DNA of 64,000 nt from Kocuria sp. TGY1127_2 (GTDB taxonomy: Bacteria > Actinomycetota > Actinomycetes > Actinomycetales > Micrococcaceae): positions 744,001-808,000 of the forward strand of contig NZ_AP022834.1 in the NCBI RefSeq assembly GCF_013394385.1. The letters run 5' to 3'. Shown one piece after another: positions 7,078 to 46,458 of the stretch. A program made the position numbers and the translations under genes. The notes under the pieces were generated by a model. That model did no database searches. It was not told the DNA's origin and worked only from the letters and a program-made list of their open reading frames with translations. The stretch's first letter is position 1; every line of letters starts with the position of its first letter.

Positions 7078-7228
7078 ACGGCTCGGGCCCCCTTTCTGCT
7101 CATCAATCCACCCCATTTCAGTTCAGGATGCCAGTATCACCTGCCCATTCGTCGGAATTTCCCTGAACGTTTCCTGAGCGCCATGTCATTGCATAGTCTT
7201 GCGCGAGGAAAAGGTGCACAGTGGAGAC

Positions 7229-8269
7229 ATGACCGAGCGAGACTGGCCCAGCCTTGAACAATTGGAAGACACCGCAACGGTAGTTTCCGTGCCGCTCAAC
7301 GTGCGGTTCCGCGGCGTCGATCACCGGGAAGCTCTGCTTTTCCAAGGGCCGGAAGGCTGGGGCGAATTCTGTCCTTTTCTGGAGTACGGACCGACCGAGG
7401 CTTCCCGCTGGCTGGCATCCGCCATAGAGTCCGCATGGGAACCATTCCCCGCCGCGCGCCGGGACAAGGTACCTGTCAATGCAACCGTTCCCGCCATCGG
7501 GCCGGAACGCGTCCCCGAGGTACTCTCTCGGTCTCGCGGTCAAGTGCGTGAAGTCAAAATCAAAGTGGCCGAGCAAGGACAGTCACTTGACGACGATGTC
7601 GCCCGAGTGCGTGCGGTCCAACGAGCCGTTCCTGGGGCCGTTCTGAAGATGGATGCGAATGGCGGATGGAACCACGAATCCGCGTTGGATGCCCTCCGAG
7701 CGCTCGCTGAATTCGCTCCTGCATACATTGAACAACCCGTGCCCACGATCGACGGCCTCGCGAGATTGCGCCAGGCGATTGCTCGCGAAGGTCTTGGCGT
7801 GCGGATCGCGGCGGACGAATCCGTGCGCAAAGAATCGGACCCGTTAAGGGTCGCGGAAGAGGGGGCAGCGGATTTGATCGTGGTCAAGGCCGCGCCGCTG
7901 GGCGGTCCGCGCAATGCACTGGGCATCATCCGCGACGCCGGTCTTCCGGCTGTTGTCAGCTCGGCCCTGGAGACGTCGGTCGGAATGAGTGCGGGTCTTG
8001 CGCTCGCGGCTTCGATTCCTGAGCTGGAGCACGCTTGTGGTTTGGGAACGGCTTCCCTGCTCGCCGGTGACCTGACGAATGAGCCGTTGATTCCCGAGGA
8101 CGGCTATCTGCCGGTCCGACGAGTAGCCCCCGACCCGGCACGACTCGAAGAATTCCGAGCCCCCGGACACCGACGCGACTGGTGGATGGGCCGGCTCCGA
8201 GACAATTACGCCCGGTTGGCCGAGAAGACCGGACACGTCCGGAGGCAACCCAATGGCGAGGAGGAATGA
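7229..8269 (+). CDS. menC: o-Succinylbenzoate synthase
   Basis: MenC dehydrates SHCHC to o-succinylbenzoate in menaquinone synthesis. The 346-residue enolase-superfamily protein carries the catalytic pair Lys110/Lys112 (VKIKV), metal ligands Asp142 (MDANGGW), Glu168 (IEQP) and Asp196 (AADES), and Lys220 (VVKAAPLGG). The ATG at 7229 follows GTGGAGAC. A long hydrophilic C-terminal tail of about 60 residues follows the barrel. The next gene begins two bases after its stop codon, so the two are probably co-translated. Confidence 0.95.
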   Translation: MTERDWPSLEQLEDTATVVSVPLNVRFRGVDHREALLFQGPEGWGEFCPFLEYGPTEASRWLASAIESAWEPFPAARRDKVPVNATVPAIGPERVPEVLSRSRGQVREVKIKVAEQGQSLDDDVARVRAVQRAVPGAVLKMDANGGWNHESALDALRALAEFAPAYIEQPVPTIDGLARLRQAIAREGLGVRIAADESVRKESDPLRVAEEGAADLIVVKAAPLGGPRNALGIIRDAGLPAVVSSALETSVGMSAGLALAASIPELEHACGLGTASLLAGDLTNEPLIPEDGYLPVRRVAPDPARLEEFRAPGHRRDWWMGRLRDNYARLAEKTGHVRRQPNGEEE

Positions 8270-8270
8270 G

Positions 8271-8690
8271 ATGCGAGAGGACTACCGTCTGATCGGGGAT
8301 GCGCCTGACCTCGAGGACTACGTGCGTTTGAGAGCGGAAGCGGGACTGTCTCCGAAGACCCCGGAACAGGCTGCTCCGGCACTGACCGGTTCGTGGGCCT
8401 GGGCGCACGTGAGGCACGTGGAATCGGAGGAGGTTGTGGCCATGGGCAGGGTCCTGGGCGACGGCGGATGGTACTTCCACATCGCCGATATGGCGACGCT
8501 GCCCAACCACCAGGGCAGGGGCATCGGTCGGGAAGTGATCTCTTCTTTGATCCGAAGAATTCGACAGCACGCCCCGGCTGACCCGTACATCACCTTGATG
8601 GCGGACAAACCAGGGCGCGCGCTGTATTACAGCATGGGGTTCAGAGACGCGATGCCCCAATCGATGGGGATGGTCATTCCACGGGACTGA
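8271..8690 (+). CDS. GNAT-family N-acetyltransferase
   Basis: This 139-residue protein has the GNAT acetyl-CoA signature QGRGIGRE around residue 84 and the typical DKPGRALYYSMGF beta6-beta7 segment. The ATG at 8271 is chosen because GAGGAGG inside the end of menC sits seven bases before it; an in-frame ATG at 8253 overlaps menC. Its last 17 bases overlap the convergent PLP-fold gene. The acceptor substrate is unknown. Confidence 0.88.
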   Translation: MREDYRLIGDAPDLEDYVRLRAEAGLSPKTPEQAAPALTGSWAWAHVRHVESEEVVAMGRVLGDGGWYFHIADMATLPNHQGRGIGREVISSLIRRIRQHAPADPYITLMADKPGRALYYSMGFRDAMPQSMGMVIPRD

Positions 8691-9738
8691 CTTTGCCTCC
8701 CCAAAGAACCGACGACCACGGAAGCCTCGGTCGTTCTCCGGGCGAGACCAGGCGGTGAGGTTCGTAGGTGGAGACCTCCCGAACTTTCGCGGCGTTGTCG
8801 TAGACTCCCTTGAGATAGCGATGTCCCGTATCCGGGCACGTCATCAGAACGCAACGCTCCTGAGGATCCTCATGCTGCGTGAGGTAGCGCGCCACTGCGT
8901 AAGCCGCTCCCGAGCTGAGTCCCGCGAAGAGCGCATGCTCCCGGCAGAGAGATATGGTGCCCGACCGTCCCACCTCGTACGAGATCCAATGGATCGAGTG
9001 ATACATATCATGTCGGACGTTTTCGAATTCGATTGAACTGCCGATCCCGGCGATGAGCATGTCCGGATCTTCGACTCCTTCCGAGCCGAAAGTGACCGAG
9101 CCGAAGGGCTGAACACCGACGAGTCGCACATCGAGCCCCGACGATGCCAGACCGAGGGCGAGCGAACCGCTGGAAACCCCCGAACCCACGGGAGCGACGA
9201 GATCAACGGACCGATAACCTCTCTCGAGCAGGAGGCGGCCCGAAGCAGAAGCGACAGGTTCATACCCGAGGTAATGAACCGCGTCGTGGTACTGGCGCAT
9301 CCAGTGCCACTCAGGATGAGCGCTGACCAGCTCCTGGACTCGCGATACACGGCGGTGTTGGTCGGCCCGCAATGATTCGGAAGGAGGCATCTGCTCGAGT
9401 TCGGCCCCCAGGAGGTCAAGCTGTATGCGCAGAGTTTCGTCGATCGTGGTCGAACCGACGATGTAACAGTGCACTCCGAGCTCGTGACATGCGAGAGCCA
9501 AGGCGTACGCGTAGATGCCGCTCGACGAGTCGATGACCGTCGAACCGGCCCGGATCGTGCCGTCTTGCATGAGACGACCCAGAGCCGCACGGGCCGAGCG
9601 TGCCTTCATCACCTCGAATCGCAGAGCGAACAACTGGGGCGCCAGCTCGATCAGGTCGGGGGCACCCAACGACTGACCCGCGTGCCTCGATATCGCTCGG
9701 GGAATGTCGGCATTGTTCGGTGACGCCTCGTCGATCAC
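8674..9738 (-). CDS. Divergent cysteine-synthase-fold (PLP type II) protein
   Basis: The 354-residue protein has the fold-type II architecture of CysK, CBS and SbnA: a DSSSGIYAYALA segment in place of TSGNTG, a GSGVSSGSLA phosphate-binding loop and a conserved CPDTGHRYL near the end. Where family members have SVKDR, this protein reads MKARSARAAL. Lys45 is the only lysine there, so the PLP lysine is displaced or missing. The GTG at 9738 is chosen over a TTG at 9750 because it gives a GTGA overlap with the kinase stop, matching the rest of the operon, and GGGAGA precedes it. SbnA-type enzymes use O-phosphoserine, which would fit the adjacent kinase. This is inference. Confidence 0.8.
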   Translation of the reverse strand: MIDEASPNNADIPRAISRHAGQSLGAPDLIELAPQLFALRFEVMKARSARAALGRLMQDGTIRAGSTVIDSSSGIYAYALALACHELGVHCYIVGSTTIDETLRIQLDLLGAELEQMPPSESLRADQHRRVSRVQELVSAHPEWHWMRQYHDAVHYLGYEPVASASGRLLLERGYRSVDLVAPVGSGVSSGSLALGLASSGLDVRLVGVQPFGSVTFGSEGVEDPDMLIAGIGSSIEFENVRHDMYHSIHWISYEVGRSGTISLCREHALFAGLSSGAAYAVARYLTQHEDPQERCVLMTCPDTGHRYLKGVYDNAAKVREVSTYEPHRLVSPGERPRLPWSSVLWGGKVSPVE

Positions 9739-10733
9739 GGATTCTCCCAAAGTTCGTGGATGGTTGTCGGCAAGCTTAAGTCGGTGAGTTCTCGGCGGGC
9801 TTCGAAGGCGCGCGACGCGACGCCGGGGTCGGTGGCGTCGTACATGATGGAACAGACGTTCCCGCTGTGTGCGATCTGGACTCCCACACCACCCGTCCGA
9901 CCGCAGATATCCAGCACCCGCCCGAGATGGGGTTTGGGCAGATGCCTTTGGTTGATGAGTGCCGAGCGCGTCGCAATCCTCCCCAGGGCCTTGGGATCAC
10001 GCCGGCGAACGGCCCGATCCAAGAGGCCCCGTAGACGATCGAATTCGGTTCGTTCAGAGGTCGAATACCGTGTGGGTCCCATGGAAACCGTGTCGATCGG
10101 TTCGACGTCGAGTCTGCACCCGACCAACCACAGAGGCGGCAGCGGTTGCTCCCACCGTTGCAGGACGTGAGCGTCGCGCTGTGCGAAGAGCACCGGCGTG
10201 GTGTCGAAGGCCAGGGGGTCGGAAGCCGTTTCGGCACGCACAGCGATCGCGCTGACCTCCTTTTCGTCCAGCACCAGGCCGCAACAATCGCAGACAGCAC
10301 GAATCGTTGCCACGACGTCGGCCGTCGAAGAGCCCATTCCCCAACCTCGATGGATGTCACTGCTTAGGTGCAAATGCCCGCCCGTAGGCCGGTTGAGGCC
10401 TCGCCGGGAACACAGTTCCAAGGTCAGTTCGGCTGCTTTCGCCGATTTCGAATGGGCGCCCTGCACACGGACACCGGCCTGAGAATCCCGGGGGCGAAAG
10501 GTCGCGTAGGCCCGCCTGCTGGGTAACGGAAGGGTCAGCAGGCCGGGAACGTACTTGCCGCGGGATCGGTCCCAGAAGCTTCCTTGGAGCAATTCGCCGT
10601 GGTGCCCTATGCACGATCCCCGGCCGGTGATCAGCGTGGGATCGACTTCGGGGGCCGAGACGGAGGCATGTTCCCGGCGAGGCGCGGGAAGCTTGGCAGA
10701 AGACCCGCTGTGAGGCAGGAGAGGATCAATCAT
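9735..10733 (-). CDS. PduX-like GHMP-family kinase
   Basis: The 332-residue protein resembles PduX, the L-threonine kinase of cobalamin side-chain synthesis. It has GHHGELLQG (43-51, compare CGELIQG), the GHMP phosphate loop RGWGMGSSTAD (129-139) and HSGNVCSIM near the C-terminus. It should phosphorylate the hydroxyl of a small amino acid or alcohol with ATP. No cobalamin genes are present, and the next gene is a PLP-type protein, so the product is more likely a phospho-amino acid intermediate. The ATG overlaps the MFS stop codon as ATGA. Enzyme class is well supported; the substrate is not. Confidence 0.82.
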   Translation of the reverse strand: MIDPLLPHSGSSAKLPAPRREHASVSAPEVDPTLITGRGSCIGHHGELLQGSFWDRSRGKYVPGLLTLPLPSRRAYATFRPRDSQAGVRVQGAHSKSAKAAELTLELCSRRGLNRPTGGHLHLSSDIHRGWGMGSSTADVVATIRAVCDCCGLVLDEKEVSAIAVRAETASDPLAFDTTPVLFAQRDAHVLQRWEQPLPPLWLVGCRLDVEPIDTVSMGPTRYSTSERTEFDRLRGLLDRAVRRRDPKALGRIATRSALINQRHLPKPHLGRVLDICGRTGGVGVQIAHSGNVCSIMYDATDPGVASRAFEARRELTDLSLPTTIHELWENP

Positions 10734-11977
10734 GGATTCGCTCCTTCGCGGACTGCGCGAAGATGCCACGCGGCCCTGGCCGCCGCAACGGCTGCACACG
10801 CCGTCACCGCCCCCAAGGCAATCCCCGCGCCGTTCCAACCGGAGAGGGCCAGGCCCAGCCCTGCAATCGAGGCTCCGATGCATACTCCGAGGCTTTGGCC
10901 CGCACCATTGAGCCCGAGGACCGTCCCACGGTGACTTCCTGATTGGCGTACAAGCAGGGTTGTCACCGTGGCGGCCAGAACCGCATGGGACGCCCCCAAG
11001 AGCGTTGTGGCGCCCAGGGCCGAAGCCACGTGATGGGTCCCGAACAGCCACATGATTGCCGCGGTTCCGAGTGCCGCAGCGATCGCGCCGATCCACGCGG
11101 TCATGACCGAATTGGAGATTTTGCGCAGCGCGACACCGCCGAACCAGTTACCGAGGAAGAATGCCAACCCGGAGAGCGTCCAGACCAAGGAAAAGAGCCC
11201 TGGGCCAACCTGGAAGCGCTCGTTGTACAGGACGGCCAGGTAGGCGAGCTGCCCCATGAAGGCCGCCGTCCGCAACATCGAAGCTGTCAGCAACGCCGGA
11301 ATGCAAGGCAGCCCGACGGCTATCTTGAGCGATTGCACGTAACCGGTGTGCAGGCCCTCCTGTCTCGGGGACCGGTCTTCCAACGTGGAACCGATCCCCG
11401 ACTTCAGGGACCACGCCAGTGCGAGGCAGAGCAACGACGTGGCGACGAGGTCTCCTCGCCAGCCCCACCACGCGGCCGGGACTGCCAGAAGGGGTGCCGA
11501 CAACACCGCAGTCAAGGTCATGACGGACGAGACCTGCGTTGCGGCCCGTCCAGATGTCGCCTCGTCGCGGAACCGGTCGGCGGCCATTGCGGAGGCTGCC
11601 GGATTGAGGATCGAGGTGCCCGCTCCGACGAACAGGCAGAAGATTACCCAAGCCCAGGGCGAGCCGATGATCCCGACCAAACAGGCCGACGCCAATAGGA
11701 CCAATGAGACGATCGTGGCCATGCGCCGGGAGATACGGTCCAGAAGAGGCGCGCACGTCAGCCCGACGAGGAGTGCGGCGACGCCCCCTACACCGCGCAG
11801 ACTCCCCATCAGGGTCGCGTGGTGACCGCTGTCCCGGGTGATCTCGACGAGAAAATTGGAATAAACGGTGAAAGGGACTAGTCCGAGGGCGCACGCGCCC
11901 AGAAGCGGCCAGATCCTGGCCACGATCGCTCGGTCAGTCAGTGTTGCATCGGAATCGGTCGGGTGCTCGTGGTGCAT
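10730..11977 (-). CDS. MFS transporter within the metallophore-like operon
   Basis: This is a major facilitator protein of about 415 residues with twelve hydrophobic segments. The A-loop-like DRISRRMA between helices 2 and 3 is typical of drug or siderophore exporters. The ATG at 11977 has GAGGAG five bases upstream; an ATG at 12001 would instead overlap the previous stop as ATGA and add eight residues. The N-terminus is MHHEH, a possible metal-binding tail. In this setting it is most likely the exporter of the cluster's small molecule. That role is inference. Confidence 0.86.
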   Translation of the reverse strand: MHHEHPTDSDATLTDRAIVARIWPLLGACALGLVPFTVYSNFLVEITRDSGHHATLMGSLRGVGGVAALLVGLTCAPLLDRISRRMATIVSLVLLASACLVGIIGSPWAWVIFCLFVGAGTSILNPAASAMAADRFRDEATSGRAATQVSSVMTLTAVLSAPLLAVPAAWWGWRGDLVATSLLCLALAWSLKSGIGSTLEDRSPRQEGLHTGYVQSLKIAVGLPCIPALLTASMLRTAAFMGQLAYLAVLYNERFQVGPGLFSLVWTLSGLAFFLGNWFGGVALRKISNSVMTAWIGAIAAALGTAAIMWLFGTHHVASALGATTLLGASHAVLAATVTTLLVRQSGSHRGTVLGLNGAGQSLGVCIGASIAGLGLALSGWNGAGIALGAVTACAAVAAARAAWHLRAVREGANP

Positions 11978-11997
11978 GTGTGCTCCTCGGTCCTCTG

Positions 11998-12816
11998 TCA
12001 TAGCGCCTTGTACACGTAGAGAGGGGTTTCCTCGGCGCTGAACTGCGAGAAGGGGAAGTGCTCGGCACTCAGGGCCGAAACCCCGCATCCCAAGAACTCT
12101 CTGGCCACTGCGGATCCCGATTGGGCGTAGACCGCGAGCGGGATCCGACGCTCCACGCACCTGTTTCGAATGCGATCGAAGCTCCCGTTTCCCAAGGTCA
12201 TTCCCGTGGCGATGACCGCATCTGCCCGGTCCAGAACCTCTTCCATGTCACGGCTCACAGGATCTCCCCACTGCGTGGTTCGCATTCCGTAATCGCAGGG
12301 CAGTGGCTCTCCGCCGCGCTGCCTGATCGCGGCGATCAAGGGGTTGACCACGCCGATCAGCGCGACCCGATCGCCCGCGGTTATGTCGAGCAGACTTGCC
12401 ACCGCGTGGTCGCGTGCGGCGGCCCGTTCGTCGGGAGTGCCCGTGGGAAGCCGGACGAGCCGCGCCCTCGCATCGTCGCGATGCGGGTTTCGGGCGGCAA
12501 GCCACGCGTCGAGTGCCGCCAATCGAATCGGGGCCGAGCCGTGTTCGAGCAGTTCTCGCACCGGGCTGCCGGACAGCTCGGAAATTTCCGGGCCGAGTTC
12601 CCCGGCCTCGAAAGCACAGGCCCCGAACGCGCCGTCGACCCGGACGAGTACGTATTGATTTCGATAGAGCTGTTCTCCGGCGGCCAGACGCGTGCCGTGC
12701 TGCACATAGAAAACGCTTCGGGCGACGGCAGGAGCCGCGGCGTGGTCTTCCTGAGCGGCTGCCTTTCGAATGACGTCCTCGGTCGAGAGAATTTCGTTTG
12801 GACTGACGAGGCTCAT
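11998..12816 (-). CDS. DUF4213/DUF364 protein (putative heavy-metal chelation family)
   Basis: The 272-residue cytosolic protein has an N-terminal DUF4213-like half (about 10-105) and a C-terminal Rossmann-like DUF364 half containing GDRVALIGVVNPLI and DAVIATGMTLGNGSFDRI. DUF364 proteins often sit beside metal or siderophore ABC importers and are described as putative heavy-metal chelation proteins; no enzyme activity is established. The ATG overlaps the binding-protein stop as ATGA. Its place between importer and biosynthetic-type genes suggests it handles the imported complex or its metal. Confidence 0.8.
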   Translation of the reverse strand: MSLVSPNEILSTEDVIRKAAAQEDHAAAPAVARSVFYVQHGTRLAAGEQLYRNQYVLVRVDGAFGACAFEAGELGPEISELSGSPVRELLEHGSAPIRLAALDAWLAARNPHRDDARARLVRLPTGTPDERAAARDHAVASLLDITAGDRVALIGVVNPLIAAIRQRGGEPLPCDYGMRTTQWGDPVSRDMEEVLDRADAVIATGMTLGNGSFDRIRNRCVERRIPLAVYAQSGSAVAREFLGCGVSALSAEHFPFSQFSAEETPLYVYKAL

Positions 12817-13847
12817 CGCAGACCCCTTCCGTTCAGGTACTCGGACAATTTCTCGGCCGCCTCGATATTTCGAGGACTGGCCACGGCCTCGCCGTAATCC
12901 ATCACATAAATGTTGTCGTGCTTGACGGCAGGAGAGTCCCTGACCGGAGACTGTTCCTTGAGGTACTTGATCTTCTCCTCGACCGGTTGTTTGTTGTAGT
13001 CAACGACGACAATCGCCTGCGGGTTCGCGGTAACAATCGATTCCCAGCCCACGGTGTCCCAGCGGGCATCCAGATCAGAAGTGACGGAGTGGGCACCGGC
13101 CAGGTCCACGATCGAATTGGCGGCAGTCCGACGCCCCGCGGTGTATGGCTCGGTGGTCCCGGAATCGTAGATGAAGACCCGACTCGGATTTTCCGGACGG
13201 GGTGCATCCTTGAGTTTGTCCTTGCGCTGGTTCAGGTCCGAGACCAACTTCTCGGCGCGGTCCTCGACCCCGAAAATCTTTCCGAGATCCTTGAGGTCCT
13301 GGTTGGTGGCTTCCAACGGTTCTGGGTTGGACCGGTCGCCTTTGTAGTTGAAGCACGTCTCGTTCTGCATGTACGACTGGATGCCCACTTTCGCCAAAGA
13401 GTCGGGCGTTACCCCGCGCTCCTCGCTGAATCCGGCCTGCCAACCTGCGAACACCCAATCGGCCTTGGCGCTGACCAACGTTTCCTGTCCCAGAACCGTG
13501 TCCGAGATGGTTTCGACTTTGGAATAGTCATCACGGTAGGGGGACTTGTCGACGACGCTGCTGATCGTCTTTGGCATGACGATTCCGCGCATCCTATCGG
13601 CAAGTCCCAGCGAGAACATTTTCTCGATCGCGGATACATCGTAGGCGACCGGTTTCTGCGGCGTGGGGTAGGTAGCCGACTGACCGCAGTTGGATATGGT
13701 CCTCTCTGAGGCATCGGATGAATCCTCCCGGACTGAGGCTCCGCAACCGGAGAGAAGCAAGATGCCCACGAGTCCGGCCGAACACAGCGTTCCGGAGTGT
13801 CGCCAGCGGGTGGGCCTGCGTTTGGACGGCGTCGGGGTGCGATTCAT
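12813..13847 (-). CDS. ABC transporter substrate-binding lipoprotein, iron-siderophore/cobalamin type
   Basis: The 344-residue protein has a basic N-terminus, a hydrophobic stretch and the lipobox LLSGC, with Cys35 as the lipidated residue. It is therefore anchored outside the membrane. The mature part has the helical-backbone fold of FecB/BtuF proteins, including IVVVDYN and the C-terminal VMDYGEAVASPRN. The ATG at 13847 is chosen because GAGGAG lies seven bases before it; an earlier ATG at 13883 lacks this. It should capture a metal-chelate for the adjacent FecCD-type permease. Confidence 0.88.
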   Translation of the reverse strand: MNRTPTPSKRRPTRWRHSGTLCSAGLVGILLLSGCGASVREDSSDASERTISNCGQSATYPTPQKPVAYDVSAIEKMFSLGLADRMRGIVMPKTISSVVDKSPYRDDYSKVETISDTVLGQETLVSAKADWVFAGWQAGFSEERGVTPDSLAKVGIQSYMQNETCFNYKGDRSNPEPLEATNQDLKDLGKIFGVEDRAEKLVSDLNQRKDKLKDAPRPENPSRVFIYDSGTTEPYTAGRRTAANSIVDLAGAHSVTSDLDARWDTVGWESIVTANPQAIVVVDYNKQPVEEKIKYLKEQSPVRDSPAVKHDNIYVMDYGEAVASPRNIEAAEKLSEYLNGRGLR

Positions 13848-13920
13848 AGGGTTCTCCTCTGGTCGGTTGATCGAAATATTCATGTGGTGCAGCCGCGGGG
13901 TGTTCAGGAGGGCGGCAGCA

Positions 13921-14751
13921 TTACATTGGAAACAGAAAATAGGGTGCCCCGGTATCCGGACGGGCCGTCACCATGGGACGAACCTTGTAGACCTTCTCGA
14001 CGAGGTCCGGATCCAACGTTTCGGCGGGCGGACCGTCGGCGACAATGCGGCCACGGTCCATCACGATGATTCGATCGCATGAGCTGGCGGCGAGATTGAG
14101 ATCGTGAAGGGCCATGACGACGCTGGGTCTCCTCGTCTCGTCGGACGGCGAGGACGCATCATCATCAGGGGCGTCGGCGCTTTCCGTGGAATGAGCGTGG
14201 CTCCTCAAATCCCGGACCAGATCGACCTGGTGTCTCAGATCCAGGTGATTGGTCGGTTCGTCGAGAAGCAAATACGGGGTCTCCTGGGCCAGGGCGCGGG
14301 CGAGCAGGGTCCTCTGGCGCTCGCCGCCAGAAAGATCCAGGAAACTTCTGTGGGCGAATTCCGCAACACCAGTGCGGGCCATCGCGCTCTCGACCGCCTG
14401 ATTGCCTCCTTCACGAGTTGCCGTCGGGTTGGCGAGGGAACCCAGGGAAACGACCTCGGCGACCGTGAAGTCGAGTTCTCCGCGCTCTTCCTGCGGGAGG
14501 GCTGCGATGAGCGAGGCGGACTTCTTGAAGGGCAGTCCCGCCAGATCAGTGCCGTTGACAAGAATCGCACCGTGGCAGGGTTGCAGGGCGCGGTAAAGCG
14601 CTTTGAGCAGAGTCGATTTCCCGCAACCATTGGGACCAACCAGACCGACGACCGAACCCGGGCCGATACCGAGCGAAACCTCGTGCACCACCTCGATGCC
14701 CGCGACTGCGATCGTCACGTCCTGAAGGCTGAGACCGATCCGAGCATTCAT
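13921..14751 (-). CDS. ABC transporter ATPase, FecE/BtuD type
   Basis: The 276-residue nucleotide-binding subunit has Walker A GPNGCGKST (39-47), signature LSGGERQ (140-146), Walker B YLLLDEPT (160-167) and the H-loop ALHDL. An acidic insertion of about 25 residues rich in Asp and Ser lies between Walker B and the H-loop and is unusual for the family. The start codon overlaps the permease stop by four bases. It powers import of the metal-chelate across the cytoplasmic membrane. Confidence 0.92.
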   Translation of the reverse strand: MNARIGLSLQDVTIAVAGIEVVHEVSLGIGPGSVVGLVGPNGCGKSTLLKALYRALQPCHGAILVNGTDLAGLPFKKSASLIAALPQEERGELDFTVAEVVSLGSLANPTATREGGNQAVESAMARTGVAEFAHRSFLDLSGGERQRTLLARALAQETPYLLLDEPTNHLDLRHQVDLVRDLRSHAHSTESADAPDDDASSPSDETRRPSVVMALHDLNLAASSCDRIIVMDRGRIVADGPPAETLDPDLVEKVYKVRPMVTARPDTGAPYFLFPM

Positions 14752-15809
14752 CGCGATCCTCCAAAGACGTAACCTCGACGGCGAATGAGAATGATGAATA
14801 CCGGCACGCCGATGAGCGCCGTGACCACGCCGAGGGGGAGCTCACGCGGAGGCACGGCGATGCGGCTGATCAGATCGACCCAGACCATGAACACGGCCCC
14901 GAACAAGGGCGCCAGGACCACAGCGGTCCGGTGCGCGGGACCGAGCACGATCCGTGTCAGGTGAGGGATGACCAATCCGACGAAGCCTATGGTTCCGGCG
15001 ACCGAGACCAAGGTCGCCGTTCCGAGAACGGTCAGGAAGAAGAGCCGACGCCTGAGTGCCTCCGGATCGACGCCGAGGCTCGCGGACGAGCCGTCGCCCA
15101 TGGACAGGGCATCCAAATCAGGGGCGCGGTGCCAAAGGTAGACAATGCACCCGCATGTGACGACCCCGGCCAGCGGAAGCTGACTCCACGTTGCCCCGCC
15201 CAAAGAACCGAGCATCCAGAACATCACTGTTCGGGCGGCGTCGCCCTTGGCATCGAAGAAGACGATCGCGGACATCAGGGCCTGGAATCCGAAAGACAGA
15301 ACGACGCCGGTCAGGATCAGCCGTACAGGTGCAATACCTCCCGACGATCTCGACAGCCCGTAGACAAGGAACGATGCTGCCAATGCGCCGGCAAATGCCG
15401 CCGAGGACAGCGCGTACACCCCGAGCCCCGAAAGTAGTCCCCAGGACACCACGGCGCTGGCACCGACCGAGGCACCGGAAGAGATGCCCAGAATAAAGGG
15501 ATCCGCGAGCGGATTGCGCACCATGGACTGTGCGGCAATCCCCAGAGCGCTCAGTCCTGCACCGACGACCGCTGCCATGATTGCCCTCGGCGTGCGAATG
15601 TCGATGACGACCGTGTAATCAGTTACGTCGGCGGAGTCGATGGTCCCGCCGGTGACGGCCGCCCACAAGTGGGCCGTCGTACGGTCCAAGGGTATCGAGG
15701 CGGCGCCCCACGAGATGGCGAGCAGTACCGATACGAGGAGCACGGCCGCCAGCCCGAAGGCCAGCAGCACTTGGCGTCGTGGAGTGATTCTGGCGAGTGA
15801 AGGATTCAT
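14748..15809 (-). CDS. FecCD-family ABC permease
   Basis: The 353-residue membrane protein has nine to ten hydrophobic helices and the FecCD hallmarks RTPRAIMA, AQSMVRNPLADP and GLVIPHLTRI. Only one permease gene is present, so the channel is probably a homodimer, as in BtuC. The ATG at 15809 is preferred because the N-terminal helix follows soon after; no clear ribosome site precedes it, and a Fur-family box begins six bases upstream. It is the first gene of the seven-gene operon. Confidence 0.92.
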   Translation of the reverse strand: MNPSLARITPRRQVLLAFGLAAVLLVSVLLAISWGAASIPLDRTTAHLWAAVTGGTIDSADVTDYTVVIDIRTPRAIMAAVVGAGLSALGIAAQSMVRNPLADPFILGISSGASVGASAVVSWGLLSGLGVYALSSAAFAGALAASFLVYGLSRSSGGIAPVRLILTGVVLSFGFQALMSAIVFFDAKGDAARTVMFWMLGSLGGATWSQLPLAGVVTCGCIVYLWHRAPDLDALSMGDGSSASLGVDPEALRRRLFFLTVLGTATLVSVAGTIGFVGLVIPHLTRIVLGPAHRTAVVLAPLFGAVFMVWVDLISRIAVPPRELPLGVVTALIGVPVFIILIRRRGYVFGGSR

Positions 15810-15814
15810 CAGAA

Positions 15815-15833
15815 GTAAATGATAATCATTCTC
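15815..15833. promoter_or_regulatory. Fur-family operator in front of the metal operon
   Basis: The 19 bases match the classical Fur box at 16 positions and contain the near-perfect palindrome AATGATAATCATT. The box lies between the divergent menD gene and the ABC permease, six bases from the permease ATG, so binding would block transcription or initiation. Fur, Zur and related actinobacterial regulators have overlapping AT-rich palindromes, so the sensed metal cannot be fixed from the sequence. It does not resemble the IdeR/DtxR consensus. Confidence 0.75.
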
Positions 15834-15916
15834 ATCTAAAATCCCAAAGCGTCCCCACGCGATCTCCTGAGTCGACGCCTGCTTCATGTGAGACGGTCCG
15901 GCGTAAAATAATTTTG

Positions 15917-17686
15917 ATGACTTCTTCAGACTCCCAGCCGGACGCGTTTTTTACCGCGGTTTCCGTGCTGGACTCTCTTTTTCGGTCCGGTATGCGGCAG
16001 GTAGTTCTGGCTCCCGGGTCCCGGTCTGCACCCCTGGCGTATGCCCTCGCTGCCGCCTCGGAGGCCGGGATTGTTGAGGTTCATGTCCGAATCGATGAGA
16101 GGTCTGCCGCGTTTACGGGGCTCGGTCTGGCCAAAGCCACGGGACGGCCGGTCGGCGTCGTGACGACCTCGGGTACCGCGGTCGGCGAATTGTTGCCGGC
16201 CGTGATGGAAGCAAACCATTCCGAAGTCCCTCTTGCGGTTCTTTCCGCGGATCGCCCGCCGCGGCTACGCGATACCGGTGCCAACCAGACCACGTGGCAA
16301 CCGGGTCTCTACGGCACTCACGTGCGCGCCTGGGCCGACCTCACGTCCTACCCAGAACCGGAGCCGGGGGAGCAGACGGTTGCATTCACCGATTGCCTCG
16401 CCGCGCTGACCGGGCGCGACCCCGAATCCTGGGAGGATGCGTCGCCTAGGCCGCTCGGGCCGGCGCACATCAACGTCGCCTTCGATGCTCCGTTGGCTCC
16501 GGACGCGAGGATGCGCGAAACCTTGCGTGCGTGGGCTTCGTCATTGGCAGATGTGCGCACCCCGGTGGCACCCCGGCTCGTTGACCGCACGGTCCTCGAC
16601 GTCCTCGCCGAGGATGCAGCGGATGGGGCACGGGAAGGGCCCACCCAGCGCACAGTAGTGGTCGCAGGAGACGGAGCCGGCCCCATTGCCAGGCGTTTTG
16701 CGGAAACTGTGGGAGCCCCGTTGCTGGCAGAACCCTCCTCGGGCGCCCGGGGCGGTCCGAATGCTCTGGGCACATACCAATTGCTCCTTGACGGAAAACT
16801 CGGGAAACTCATTGAGCGTGTGGTCCTCTTCGGGCGCCCGACCTTGTCCCGGTCTGTGGACAGTCTTCTCCATCGCCAGGACATCGAGTCGATCATTTAT
16901 CTGCCTCGTCCCGTGGCGTGGGCCCGCCCCGATCGGCGTCCAGAACGTCCTGTACAGACCCTCGAGGACGCCCGGAATTTCGCGGGTCGATGCGCTGCCT
17001 CCTGGCTCGAACAGTGGAGAAGTGAAGATCGTCGCCTCGACCGGTCCCTCAACGGTCTCTTCTCACAGGCCGAAGCCCGCAACGGCGTTCTCAACGGGCC
17101 TGGCGTTGCTCGATTGGTGAGGGAAGCGACCGACAAGGACGGGATAACCCTCGTCTGCGGGTCATCCAACCTCATCCGTGATCTCGACCTTGCCCCCATC
17201 GACGAGACTGTGGACCGTGAAGCGGCAGTCTACGCGAACCGCGGGCTTGCCGGCATCGACGGCACAGTGGCAACGGCAAGCGGCATCGCGCTGGCCGAGC
17301 AAGGACCGGTCCGCCTCCTCCTGGGAGACCTGACGCTCCTTCACGATTCCGGATCGTTGCTCATCGGGCCGGGGGAAACCGTGCCCGACCTACAGATCAT
17401 TGTGTTCAACGACGCGGGCGGCGGGATCTTTTCGACCCTCGAGCACGGCAACGTGGCCCGGGATGAGGGGTGGTCGGGGGCCGTGGAACGTTTCTTCGGG
17501 ACACCGCAGATGGCGGACCTGGAACGCCTTGCTGCCGTGCATCATCACCATTATGTCCGCGCGGACGACGCCGAAGCGCTGAGGTGCGCGCTGTCTTCTC
17601 CGATTCGCGGTATCACCCTGATCGAGGTCCGGGGTACACGGGAGGGACTTGCCGACGAGCGCGTCCTCTGGAAGGAGCGCGTCTGA
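15917..17686 (+). CDS. menD: 2-Succinyl-5-enolpyruvyl-6-hydroxy-3-cyclohexene-1-carboxylate synthase
   Basis: MenD is the thiamine-diphosphate enzyme that joins isochorismate and 2-oxoglutarate. The 589-residue protein has the N-terminal APGSRSAPLA and VRIDERSAAF (with the cofactor-activating Glu), the DRPPRLRDTGANQT segment, and the ThDP/Mg region with NRGLAGIDGTVATA. The ATG at 15917 follows a TAAAATAAT element by only a few bases, suggesting a leaderless or very short-leader message. It diverges from the metal operon and ends against a long inverted repeat. Confidence 0.96.
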   Translation: MTSSDSQPDAFFTAVSVLDSLFRSGMRQVVLAPGSRSAPLAYALAAASEAGIVEVHVRIDERSAAFTGLGLAKATGRPVGVVTTSGTAVGELLPAVMEANHSEVPLAVLSADRPPRLRDTGANQTTWQPGLYGTHVRAWADLTSYPEPEPGEQTVAFTDCLAALTGRDPESWEDASPRPLGPAHINVAFDAPLAPDARMRETLRAWASSLADVRTPVAPRLVDRTVLDVLAEDAADGAREGPTQRTVVVAGDGAGPIARRFAETVGAPLLAEPSSGARGGPNALGTYQLLLDGKLGKLIERVVLFGRPTLSRSVDSLLHRQDIESIIYLPRPVAWARPDRRPERPVQTLEDARNFAGRCAASWLEQWRSEDRRLDRSLNGLFSQAEARNGVLNGPGVARLVREATDKDGITLVCGSSNLIRDLDLAPIDETVDREAAVYANRGLAGIDGTVATASGIALAEQGPVRLLLGDLTLLHDSGSLLIGPGETVPDLQIIVFNDAGGGIFSTLEHGNVARDEGWSGAVERFFGTPQMADLERLAAVHHHHYVRADDAEALRCALSSPIRGITLIEVRGTREGLADERVLWKERV

Positions 17687-44356: not shown

Positions 44357-45856
44357 TTATGCGCCGGGGACGTCGTCGCCCTCGTTCTGCTTGACTGCGG
44401 ACTCGATGCGCTCGCCGACTTCCTGGTCGATGTTCTTCCAGTACTGGATGGCGTTGGAGAGAACCGGTTCCTCGCAATCACCGAGCATTCCGGCGACGGT
44501 CTCGATCAGGCGCTCGCGTGCGCCCTCGTCGTAGACCTCGCGGACCAAGGTGTGTGCCTGGCCGAAATCGTCATCCTCCGAGTGAAGAGTGTAGGCGGCC
44601 CGAACGAGCTCGCCATCGGATTCCCAACCATTCTCCACCGGGCCCTGCTCGTCCTGATATGCACGACCGTAAGAGTTCGGAGCGTAGACCGGAGCGTCAC
44701 CACTGTGGTGGTACTCCATCTGGCCTTCCTTGTCGTACGAATTGGTGCTCACGAGAGGCGCGTTGACCGGCAACTGATTGAAGTTGGTTCCGATGCGGTT
44801 ACGCTGTGCATCCGGGTAGGAAAACACGCGTCCCAACAGCATCTTGTCGGGGGATACGCCGGTTCCCGGAACCGTGTTCGAGGGGCTGAAGGCAGCCTGC
44901 TCGATCTCCGCGAAGTGGTTCCGCGGGTTGCGCGTCAGGGTGAAACGGCCGACGGGGATGCGCGGGTAGTCCTTCTGCGACCAGATCTTGGTCAGATCGA
45001 AGGGGTTGAACCGGTAGGTCTTGGCGTCCTCGTACGGCATGATCTGAATCTCGACTCGCCACGAAGGGTATTCGCCGCGTGCGATCGCGTCGAAGAGATC
45101 ACGACGGTGGTAGTCGCCATCGGAGCCTGCGAGCTCTTCGGCTTCTTCGTTGGTCATGTTCTCCACACCCTGCTCGGTGAGGAAGTGGTACTTGACCCAG
45201 AACTTCTCGCCGGATTCGTTGACCAGCATGTAGGTGTGGGACGAGTAGCCGTTCATGTTGCGCCAGCTGCGGGGCAGACCACGGTCACCCATGAGGTAGG
45301 CGACCTGGTGGGCCGACTCGGGGGAGAGGCTCCAGAAGTCCCACTGCATGTTTGCACTGCGCAGGCCGGAGTCCGGGGTGCGCTTCTGGGAGTGAATGAA
45401 GTCGGGGAATTTCATGGGGTCGCGGACGAAGAACACCGGGGTGTTGTTGCCGACCATGTCGAAGTTGCCATCTTCGGTGTAGAACTTCAGCGCAAAGCCG
45501 CGGACGTCTCGCCACGTATCCGGCGAGCCGAGCTCGCCGGCCACGGTGGAGAAGCGAGCCAGCATCGGCGTCTTGGCACCCTTCTGCAGGAACTTCGCTT
45601 TGGTGTAGCGGCTGATGTCCTCGGTGATCTCGAGTTCGCCGAAAGCACCCGAACCCTTGGCGTGGGGGCTGCGTTCCGGCACGCGCTCGCGGTCAAAGCG
45701 TGCGAGCTTCTCGACGAGGGCGACATCGTGCAGCATCAGAGGGCCGTTGGGGCCCAATGACAATGAATTGGCATCGGACTCGCGAGGTGCGCCCGACTCG
45801 GTGGTCGAGGGCTTCGTCGGATCCGTGGTGCTCTGGTTCGAAACGAACTCAGTCAT
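44357..45856 (-). CDS. katA: Monofunctional haem catalase
   Basis: The 499-residue clade-3-size catalase decomposes hydrogen peroxide in the cytosol. The catalytic His65 lies in [12 protein letters not shown], the distal Asn in [10 protein letters not shown], and the haem-ligating Tyr in [21 protein letters not shown] precedes the ATG at 45856. It lies 50 bases downstream of a Fur-family regulator gene on the same strand, the usual actinobacterial furA-katA arrangement, and is probably co-transcribed and peroxide-induced. Confidence 0.97.
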
Positions 45857-45906
45857 CTGTGATCTCCTTCTTTTGAATGTGCGTGGTTGTGTGGTGATTG
45901 CCGGAC

Positions 45907-46458
45907 TCAGTGAGTGGTGAGCCCGGACAGATGTGGACCCGCGGCCGCTGCCGCAGAGTGTGGACCGTTCGCAGCGGTTGCGGCCCGTTCGGACTGACAA
46001 TCGGCGCAGATTCCGCGGTAGACGACGTCGGCCGCGATGATCGTCATACCGTGGGCATCGCTTGGAGCCAAGCAAGGCGCTTCGCCGACAGCGCAGTCCA
46101 CGTCCTCGACGCGGCCACAGACCACGCACAGGGCGTGGTGATGGTTGTCGGATGCTCGCGTCTCGTAGAGTGCCGGTGTGCTCGGCGGCTGGAATTTCCG
46201 CAGTAATTCGATCTCCGTGAGGTCCGCCAAAACGACGTACACGGACTGGACGGTGATATTCGGCAGTTCGTCCCGCACGTATTCGACGATGTCCTCCGCG
46301 GGGGAATGCTGGTTCCGGTGAACTGCGGACAACACCGCTAGACGTTGCTTGGTAACCCGCCGACCGTGGGAACGGAGTTCGCCGGACCAGTCGGCGCGCA
46401 AGTGATCGAGGGAGCTGCCCTCGGGCGCGTTGCTGGTATTTGGCTGAACCGATGTCAT
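45907..46458 (-). CDS. furA: Fur-family regulator, FurA/PerR/CatR-like
   Basis: The 183-residue repressor has the Fur winged-helix ([29 protein letters not shown]) and the regulatory His cluster NHHHALC. The structural zinc site is formed by CVVCG and CADCQ. The gene order with catalase points to a peroxide-sensing FurA/CatR role rather than global iron control. An Ala-rich tail of about 25 residues follows the second CxxC. A palindrome 17 bases upstream of the ATG indicates autoregulation. Confidence 0.92.

Follow-up and report, generated by a model that had tools for sequence, protein, structure and literature searches.

The window analyzed here, 64,000 nucleotides of Kocuria sp. TGY1127_2 (contig NZ_AP022834.1, positions 744,001 to 808,000), contains a run of seven minus-strand genes that probably (at roughly 0.7) forms a zinc-starvation-induced zincophore system, by which a small aminopolycarboxylate would be made, exported, and re-imported. 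This reading is carried by computed gene content, conservation, the placement of a predicted Zur-type box, homology of one enzyme to SbnA, and an association between residue 186 of that enzyme and a kinase gene. A first-pass annotation made from the letters alone had proposed a metallophore-type operon at 8674..15850; all seven genes were confirmed there, the conserved gene set supports the proposal, and the predicted box sharpens it to zinc. Pfam and NCBIfam profile scans of the seven proteins and three flanking genes bore out most of its family names (permease, ATPase, receptor, DUF364, major facilitator superfamily (MFS) transporter, kinase fold, and pyridoxal phosphate (PLP) enzyme fold). 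Start codons were refined by eye (FecCD at about 15809, receptor at 13847, MFS at 12001, kinase at 10733, and PLP enzyme at 9738). With these starts, adjacent genes share 4 bases in five of the six neighboring pairs, consistent with a single coupled operon.

15820..15834, minus strand: Zur-type box TGAGAATGATTATCA, a 7-1-7 imperfect palindrome upstream of FecCD
15819..15847, minus strand: sigma-70-like promoter TTGGGA-17-TATCAT (9/12 matches), its -10 element overlapping the box
14748..15809, minus strand: FecCD-family ATP-binding cassette (ABC) permease (PF01032, 284 bits, 1.6e-84); open reading frame (ORF) open to 15887, start set after the box
13921..14751, minus strand: ABC ATPase, siderophore/B12/heme type (ABC_tran, 107 bits)
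12813..13847, minus strand: lipoprotein substrate-binding protein, the receptor (Peripla_BP_2, PF01497, 76 bits); ORF opens at 13883
11998..12816, minus strand: DUF4213/DUF364 protein (DUF364, PF04016, 38 bits, cutoff 23)
10730..12001, minus strand: MFS transporter, candidate exporter (MFS_1, PF07690, 99 bits)
9735..10733, minus strand: GHMP kinase, candidate amino acid (threonine) kinase (GHMP_kinases_N, 49 bits)
8674..9738, minus strand: SbnA/cysteine synthase-fold PLP enzyme (PALP, 98 bits; residues K45, S73, R130, Y150, and S186)

In the proposed mechanism, zinc-loaded Zur would bind the box over the -10 region and repress the operon, and zinc shortage would lift the repression. The GHMP kinase would then phosphorylate a hydroxy-amino acid, most likely l-threonine, and the PLP enzyme would eliminate the phosphate, giving an aminocrotonate-type intermediate to which it would join another amino acid through the latter's amino group. 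O-Phosphoserine is the substrate of SbnA and of aspergillomarasmine synthase in the equivalent reaction. The outcome would be a small aminopolycarboxylate resembling ethylenediamine disuccinate (EDDS) or marasmine, which the DUF364 protein may finish or modify, the MFS protein would export, and the lipoprotein/FecCD/ATPase importer would return as the zinc complex.

Predicted zinc regulation

Promoter-like sites at the stringency used number 2 in the region versus a shuffle mean of 1.3, so the promoter is weak evidence alone. For the box, TGANAATNATTNTCA at up to 1 mismatch has a single match in the window (shuffle mean, 0.06) and occurs at three places in the source genome (G000; 3.0 Mb, two contigs), with none for the reversed motif. 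When the window and five related loci are aligned, the GAAT-ATTATCATT core is invariant except for its middle base, and the flanks differ. The box agrees with two motifs given in an excerpt of PMC5472717, that of Streptomyces Zur (tGaNNatSatNNtCa) and that of actinobacterial znuA. In the 80 related loci described below, the motif is present in 56, at 60 sites, of which 54 are close to the 5' end of a gene in the cluster; the reversed motif gave 0 sites, as did the motif itself in five Markov resamplings of the 1.49 Mb. The first-pass annotation had held that an operon free of metal regulation would speak against its idea; a predicted metal-regulator box, of which the annotation made no mention, instead sits on the promoter and is kept in most loci.

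Within the genus, the motif also marks other zinc genes. Six further genomes were searched and contain 25 places, this operon accounting for 3 of them; 15 of the other 22 and two in the source genome (one at 2 mismatches) were examined, and 8 of these 17 lie by zinc genes. The genes behind the motif encode CobW_C proteins (two sites in G016, one each in G000 and G012), ZnuA (G016), and anchored-repeat surface proteins of the zinc-transporter type (G016, G005, and G000, the last at 2 mismatches). The CobW_C site of the source genome, about 47 nt upstream of its gene, is another of the three places mentioned above; the remaining one (G000 2429172) coincides with the beginning of an ORF (MKIILTV, read by eye) and was taken as chance. 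The operon thus has the promoter-overlapping 15-mer that is common to known zinc genes of the genus, as a member of a Zur regulon would. Of the two Fur-family genes in the source genome, one is about 2 kb away from a znuA-family gene; the other, in the window (45907-46458), is immediately next to a catalase-like gene (44357-46129, by eye) in a FurA-like arrangement. The box points to zinc rather than iron, and we infer that Zur is the regulator and zinc the metal.

A conserved actinobacterial cassette

One scan of a species-genome collection gave 266 loci encoding a relative of the PLP enzyme, and the best 80 of the 266 were analyzed. Neighbors were counted at a phmmer E value of up to 1e-8 in stretches of up to 10 kb on either side, many of which end at contig ends. 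The set contains same-genome repeats (L132 and L137, which are identical, and L092/L115, L108/L116, L119/L143, and L136/L147) and, being chosen by the PLP enzyme, is no test of its loss. DUF364 is present in 72 loci, the receptor and FecCD in 58 each, the ABC ATPase in 66 (a count that takes in low-scoring, probably unrelated ATPases), the kinase in 53, and the window-type MFS protein in 41. A second MFS family occurs in at least 26 loci, an MFS protein of either family is found in 68, and methyltransferase-like proteins and Fur-family genes occur in at least 27 and 7 loci, respectively; these additional families are lower bounds because the gene caller was rough. The set recurs in Streptomyces, Pseudonocardia, Nocardiopsis, Amycolatopsis, Corynebacterium falsenii, Kocuria, and others, as the first-pass annotation had suggested checking, and the joint recurrence of the same genes in many genera indicates an association beyond chance. 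The seven-gene run is a cassette conserved in actinobacteria. The annotation had named, as grounds for dropping the idea, a lack of the kinase and PLP genes in the majority of homologous loci; this is not what the kinase and DUF364 counts show.

The closest named matches of the PLP enzyme are from Kocuria sp. 36 (92%), then Rothia koreensis (74%), followed by Curtobacterium sp. S6 and Kocuria massiliensis (67% each). Homologs of >60% identity occur in 4 of 25 genomes of the genus (the source genome and 24 others). Among 396 genomes of the order, only the source genome itself gave a kinase match at E values up to 1e-10. In an even sample of the phylum, the PLP enzyme (E up to 1e-60) is present in 5 of 396 genomes and DUF364 (E up to 1e-30) in 6, 3 of them strong matches (450 bits or more); in all three, the source genome included, the PLP and kinase genes are adjacent to it.

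The operon lies between genes that are outside the system:

7199..8269, plus strand: MenC, left flank (o-succinylbenzoate synthase, 414.6 bits, cutoff 288)
8253..8690, plus strand: GNAT acetyltransferase, left flank (family scan)
15917..17686, plus strand: MenD, right flank (337 bits, cutoff 244)

The cassette is upstream of menD in all four carriers of the genus. Of 26 menD loci without the operon, 21 have MenC within 1.5 kb of menD (neither was seen in the other 5); together, these placements indicate that the seven genes behave as one cassette that is acquired or lost whole.

Several related loci differ in composition. In Streptomyces hyderabadensis (L085), the cluster is next to a Fur-family gene and to a CobW protein (523 bits to ZigA, below the cutoff of 600); in L089, its neighbors are choice-of-anchor M proteins and again a Fur-family gene. 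Six Streptomyces loci (L114, L120, L122, L143, L144, and L153) have an SBP_bac_5-type (Opp/Nik) receptor with PLP, DUF364, and MFS genes, an assignment for which the receptor family was checked on L144 and the permease on L114; FecCD was not found in the analyzed stretch of four of them, L143 and L144 have both importer types, and four of the six also carry a PhyH-type dioxygenase. A RimK-like ATP-grasp gene lies within the importer set of the kinase-less relatives L088, L089, L097, and L115, and L119 and L135 combine a divergent kinase (130-138 bits) with PLP, L-amino-acid-ligase-like ATP-grasp, MFS, and methyltransferase genes. On Bosea and Aminobacter plasmids (L023 and L027), a kinase-PLP pair without DUF364 stands by threonine synthase, LuxR-type regulators, and acyl-homoserine-lactone synthases, which may be a different use of the same chemistry.

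The PLP enzyme, residue 186, and the other proteins

The divergent cysteine synthase-fold protein of the first-pass annotation is best related, among solved proteins, to SbnA by both profile and fold. SbnA is its best NCBIfam match at 127.6 bits, and the cutoff of the SbnA equivalog TIGR03945 (349.95 bits) was not reached. The enzyme has fold type II with the PLP lysine and Ser75 of the SbnA active-site loop. According to an excerpt of PMC12414870, R132, Y152, and S185 of SbnA are its O-phosphoserine residues; two of these three phosphate-binding residues are kept, as R130 and Y150, in 83 of 83 PLP enzymes.

S186 adjoins the third position. Column 186 is Ser in 56/56 kinase-linked enzymes and Thr in 24/24 kinase-less ones, and it is the only one of 330 alignment columns that separates both groups fully. 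These counts leave out L107, L108, and L116, whose contigs end 0.1-1.2 kb before the PLP gene; L108 and L116 are S type with no kinase on the contig and belong to a single genome, in which two kinases lie close to contig starts, and L107 is T type, its genome having a kinase on a separate contig. A single evolutionary event may account for both kinase loss and the S/T change. Several independent events, suggested by a first tree, were withdrawn after a one-clade test.

In the kinase, G46, E47, Q50, G51, G130, G132, S135, and S136 are invariant in 33 rows, the window included. GHMP membership alone is supported; names such as homoserine or mevalonate kinase were rejected, every curated cutoff being missed, and the earlier PduX-like label reflects a motif only, no library model of the name PduX having matched. 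The DUF364 protein exceeds the gathering cutoff and has the enolase-N plus Rossmann fold, with 14% identity over the aligned part to the DUF364 protein Dhaf4260 (3l5o). The MFS transporter weakly resembles Cmx/CmrA efflux proteins (27 bits, cutoff 400), and the best PDB match of the receptor is 4n01, a "periplasmic binding protein."

Counterevidence and alternative explanations

Several observations weigh against the zincophore reading. On the regulatory side, no recognized zinc gene lies at 9 of the 17 examined motif places, 24 of the 80 loci are without the motif at up to 1 mismatch, and no library model at its cutoff named the Fur-family proteins Zur. On the enzymatic side, a single-sequence comparison places cysteine synthase (57.3 bits) level with SbnA (56.3 bits), SbnA Asn77 is replaced by Ile, and the counterpart of SbnA Ser185 is Gly in 83/83 enzymes, so the full O-phosphoserine residue set is absent. 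As for residue 186, a tree with the T rows as one clade is better by 35.6 log units (p-AU of the approximately unbiased test, 0.88), Thr occurs in one of four alphaproteobacterial kinase-linked enzymes, and T-type L193 and L194 of the phylum sample have no kinase, DUF364, or motif in 19 kb. A kinase is present elsewhere in 9 of the 24 genomes with kinase-less loci: four beside an S-type PLP enzyme of the same family, two with a more divergent PLP enzyme 3-6 kb off, two without PLP in the stretch read, and one on broken contigs. With only 78 candidates scored per large genome, a kinase may have been missed in the other 15, and kinase-less L136 shows just 1.7 kb upstream. Kinase genes of the same family with no PLP partner found in the stretch read occur at L189 and L192, in two genomes with T-type PLP enzymes.

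An unlikely alternative is salvage, with the importer taking up a foreign chelator, the kinase, PLP enzyme, and DUF364 modifying or dismantling it inside the cell, and the MFS protein exporting a by-product. Family scans found no large synthetase encoded among the seven genes, and kinases and PLP enzymes can serve in breakdown, synthesis here being our interpretation. Set against this are the MFS gene of either family in most loci, a transporter makeup like that of zincophore-producing clusters, and the synthetic role of SbnA described in the excerpt of PMC12414870. Quite unlikely is a metallophore for another metal under a non-Zur Fur-family regulator (nickel by Nur, cobalt, or iron). Fur-family boxes look alike. 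Passages of PMC2954201 link DUF364 neighbors with several metals. Against this reading, the motif of the operon also stands, within the genus, upstream of znuA, CobW-type, and anchored-repeat zinc genes, and the second Fur-family gene of the genome adjoins catalase. Iron control as the main regulation was rejected, an IdeR-type consensus being found at up to 4 mismatches in only 3 of the 80 loci.

It is very unlikely that the operon, instead of making a chelator, provides a peptide or antimetabolite with a diamino acid of the 2,3-diaminobutyrate type. An Azospirillum oryzae plasmid locus (L024, 8962-14760) has one run of a kinase, an SbnA-like enzyme, an ATP-grasp protein, a DMT transporter, and an argH-like lyase, a candidate diaminobutyrate-type pathway, and such trios make diaminobutyrate in friulimicin-type antibiotics; the seven genes, by contrast, lack a lyase, an SbnB-like release enzyme, and a peptide synthetase, and they combine predicted zinc-type regulation with an adjacent chelate-type importer. 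Salvage of corrinoids (B12/cobinamide), in which the kinase would be a threonine kinase of the PduX type that serves the nucleotide loop, is already disfavored and barely plausible: no cobalamin riboswitch reached the gathering score in the window (the RNA matches are tRNAs only), a Zur-type box is present, and the PLP enzyme has the SbnA fold, from which that of CobD differs. In its favor, the importer resembles BtuCDF among others, and phosphothreonine is the product of PduX (excerpt of PMC9700786).

If the zincophore reading is correct, a class of zinc scavenging across actinobacteria has gone unseen, having no nonribosomal peptide synthetase, NRPS-independent siderophore (NIS) synthetase, or nicotianamine-type signature; DUF364, whose function has stayed unproven since its structure appeared in 2010, would gain a testable role; and small EDDS-like chelators, a family of interest for practical use, would be added. 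The system is of a type that we did not find described: no description of this cluster was among the matches listed in the open-access literature (most subscription papers lay outside the search). A broader and more tentative proposal, which we hold at somewhat less than even odds, is that kinase-primed zincophores are widespread in actinobacteria, built from O-phosphothreonine (by the GHMP kinase) and an amino acid (by the SbnA-like enzyme) and finished by DUF364, which would thereby gain its first function, with S186 and T186 marking phosphothreonine-using and serine-derived lineages. The genome would then tell whether the product bears an extra methyl group.

Comparison with known systems

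The first-pass annotation had likened the operon to SbnI/SbnA of staphyloferrin B in Staphylococcus aureus. The analogy holds at the level of chemistry, in that both systems would have their own kinase to supply an O-phospho-amino acid, an SbnA-fold PLP enzyme to swap the phosphate for an amino acid, and metal regulation; it fails for the kinase, which is of the GHMP type here, whereas SbnI has another fold. In addition, Ser185, Asn77, and Thr186 of SbnA are Gly, Ile, and Ser in the window enzyme, DUF364 is present, and staphyloferrin B is under Fur/iron control, in contrast to the zinc-type box. As the annotation had stated, neither SbnB nor NIS synthetases were found among the seven genes and the three flanking genes scanned, which sets the operon apart from the staphyloferrin B operon.

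By described reaction alone, the predicted chemistry is like that of aspergillomarasmine A synthase, in which one PLP enzyme joins a phospho-amino acid and an amino acid into a zinc-chelating aminopolycarboxylate; that enzyme is fungal and uses O-phosphoserine. Opine-like zincophore clusters have nicotianamine synthase (NAS)-like and opine dehydrogenase genes, neither of which is among the seven here, as the annotation had noted for the former; the biosynthetic enzymes differ. The staphylopine-type dehydrogenase PF10100 likewise has no match among the seven genes or in the source genome, nor did it match in the control genomes. The staphylopine and pseudopaline clusters nevertheless share with the proposed system zinc uptake, an MFS exporter with a FecCD or Opp importer, and sometimes a methyltransferase, as outlined in a passage of PMC7438024. 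By description only, the predicted product would resemble [S,S]-EDDS of Amycolatopsis japonicum, a Zur-controlled actinobacterial aminopolycarboxylate zincophore according to excerpts of PMC6103462 and PMC9252823.
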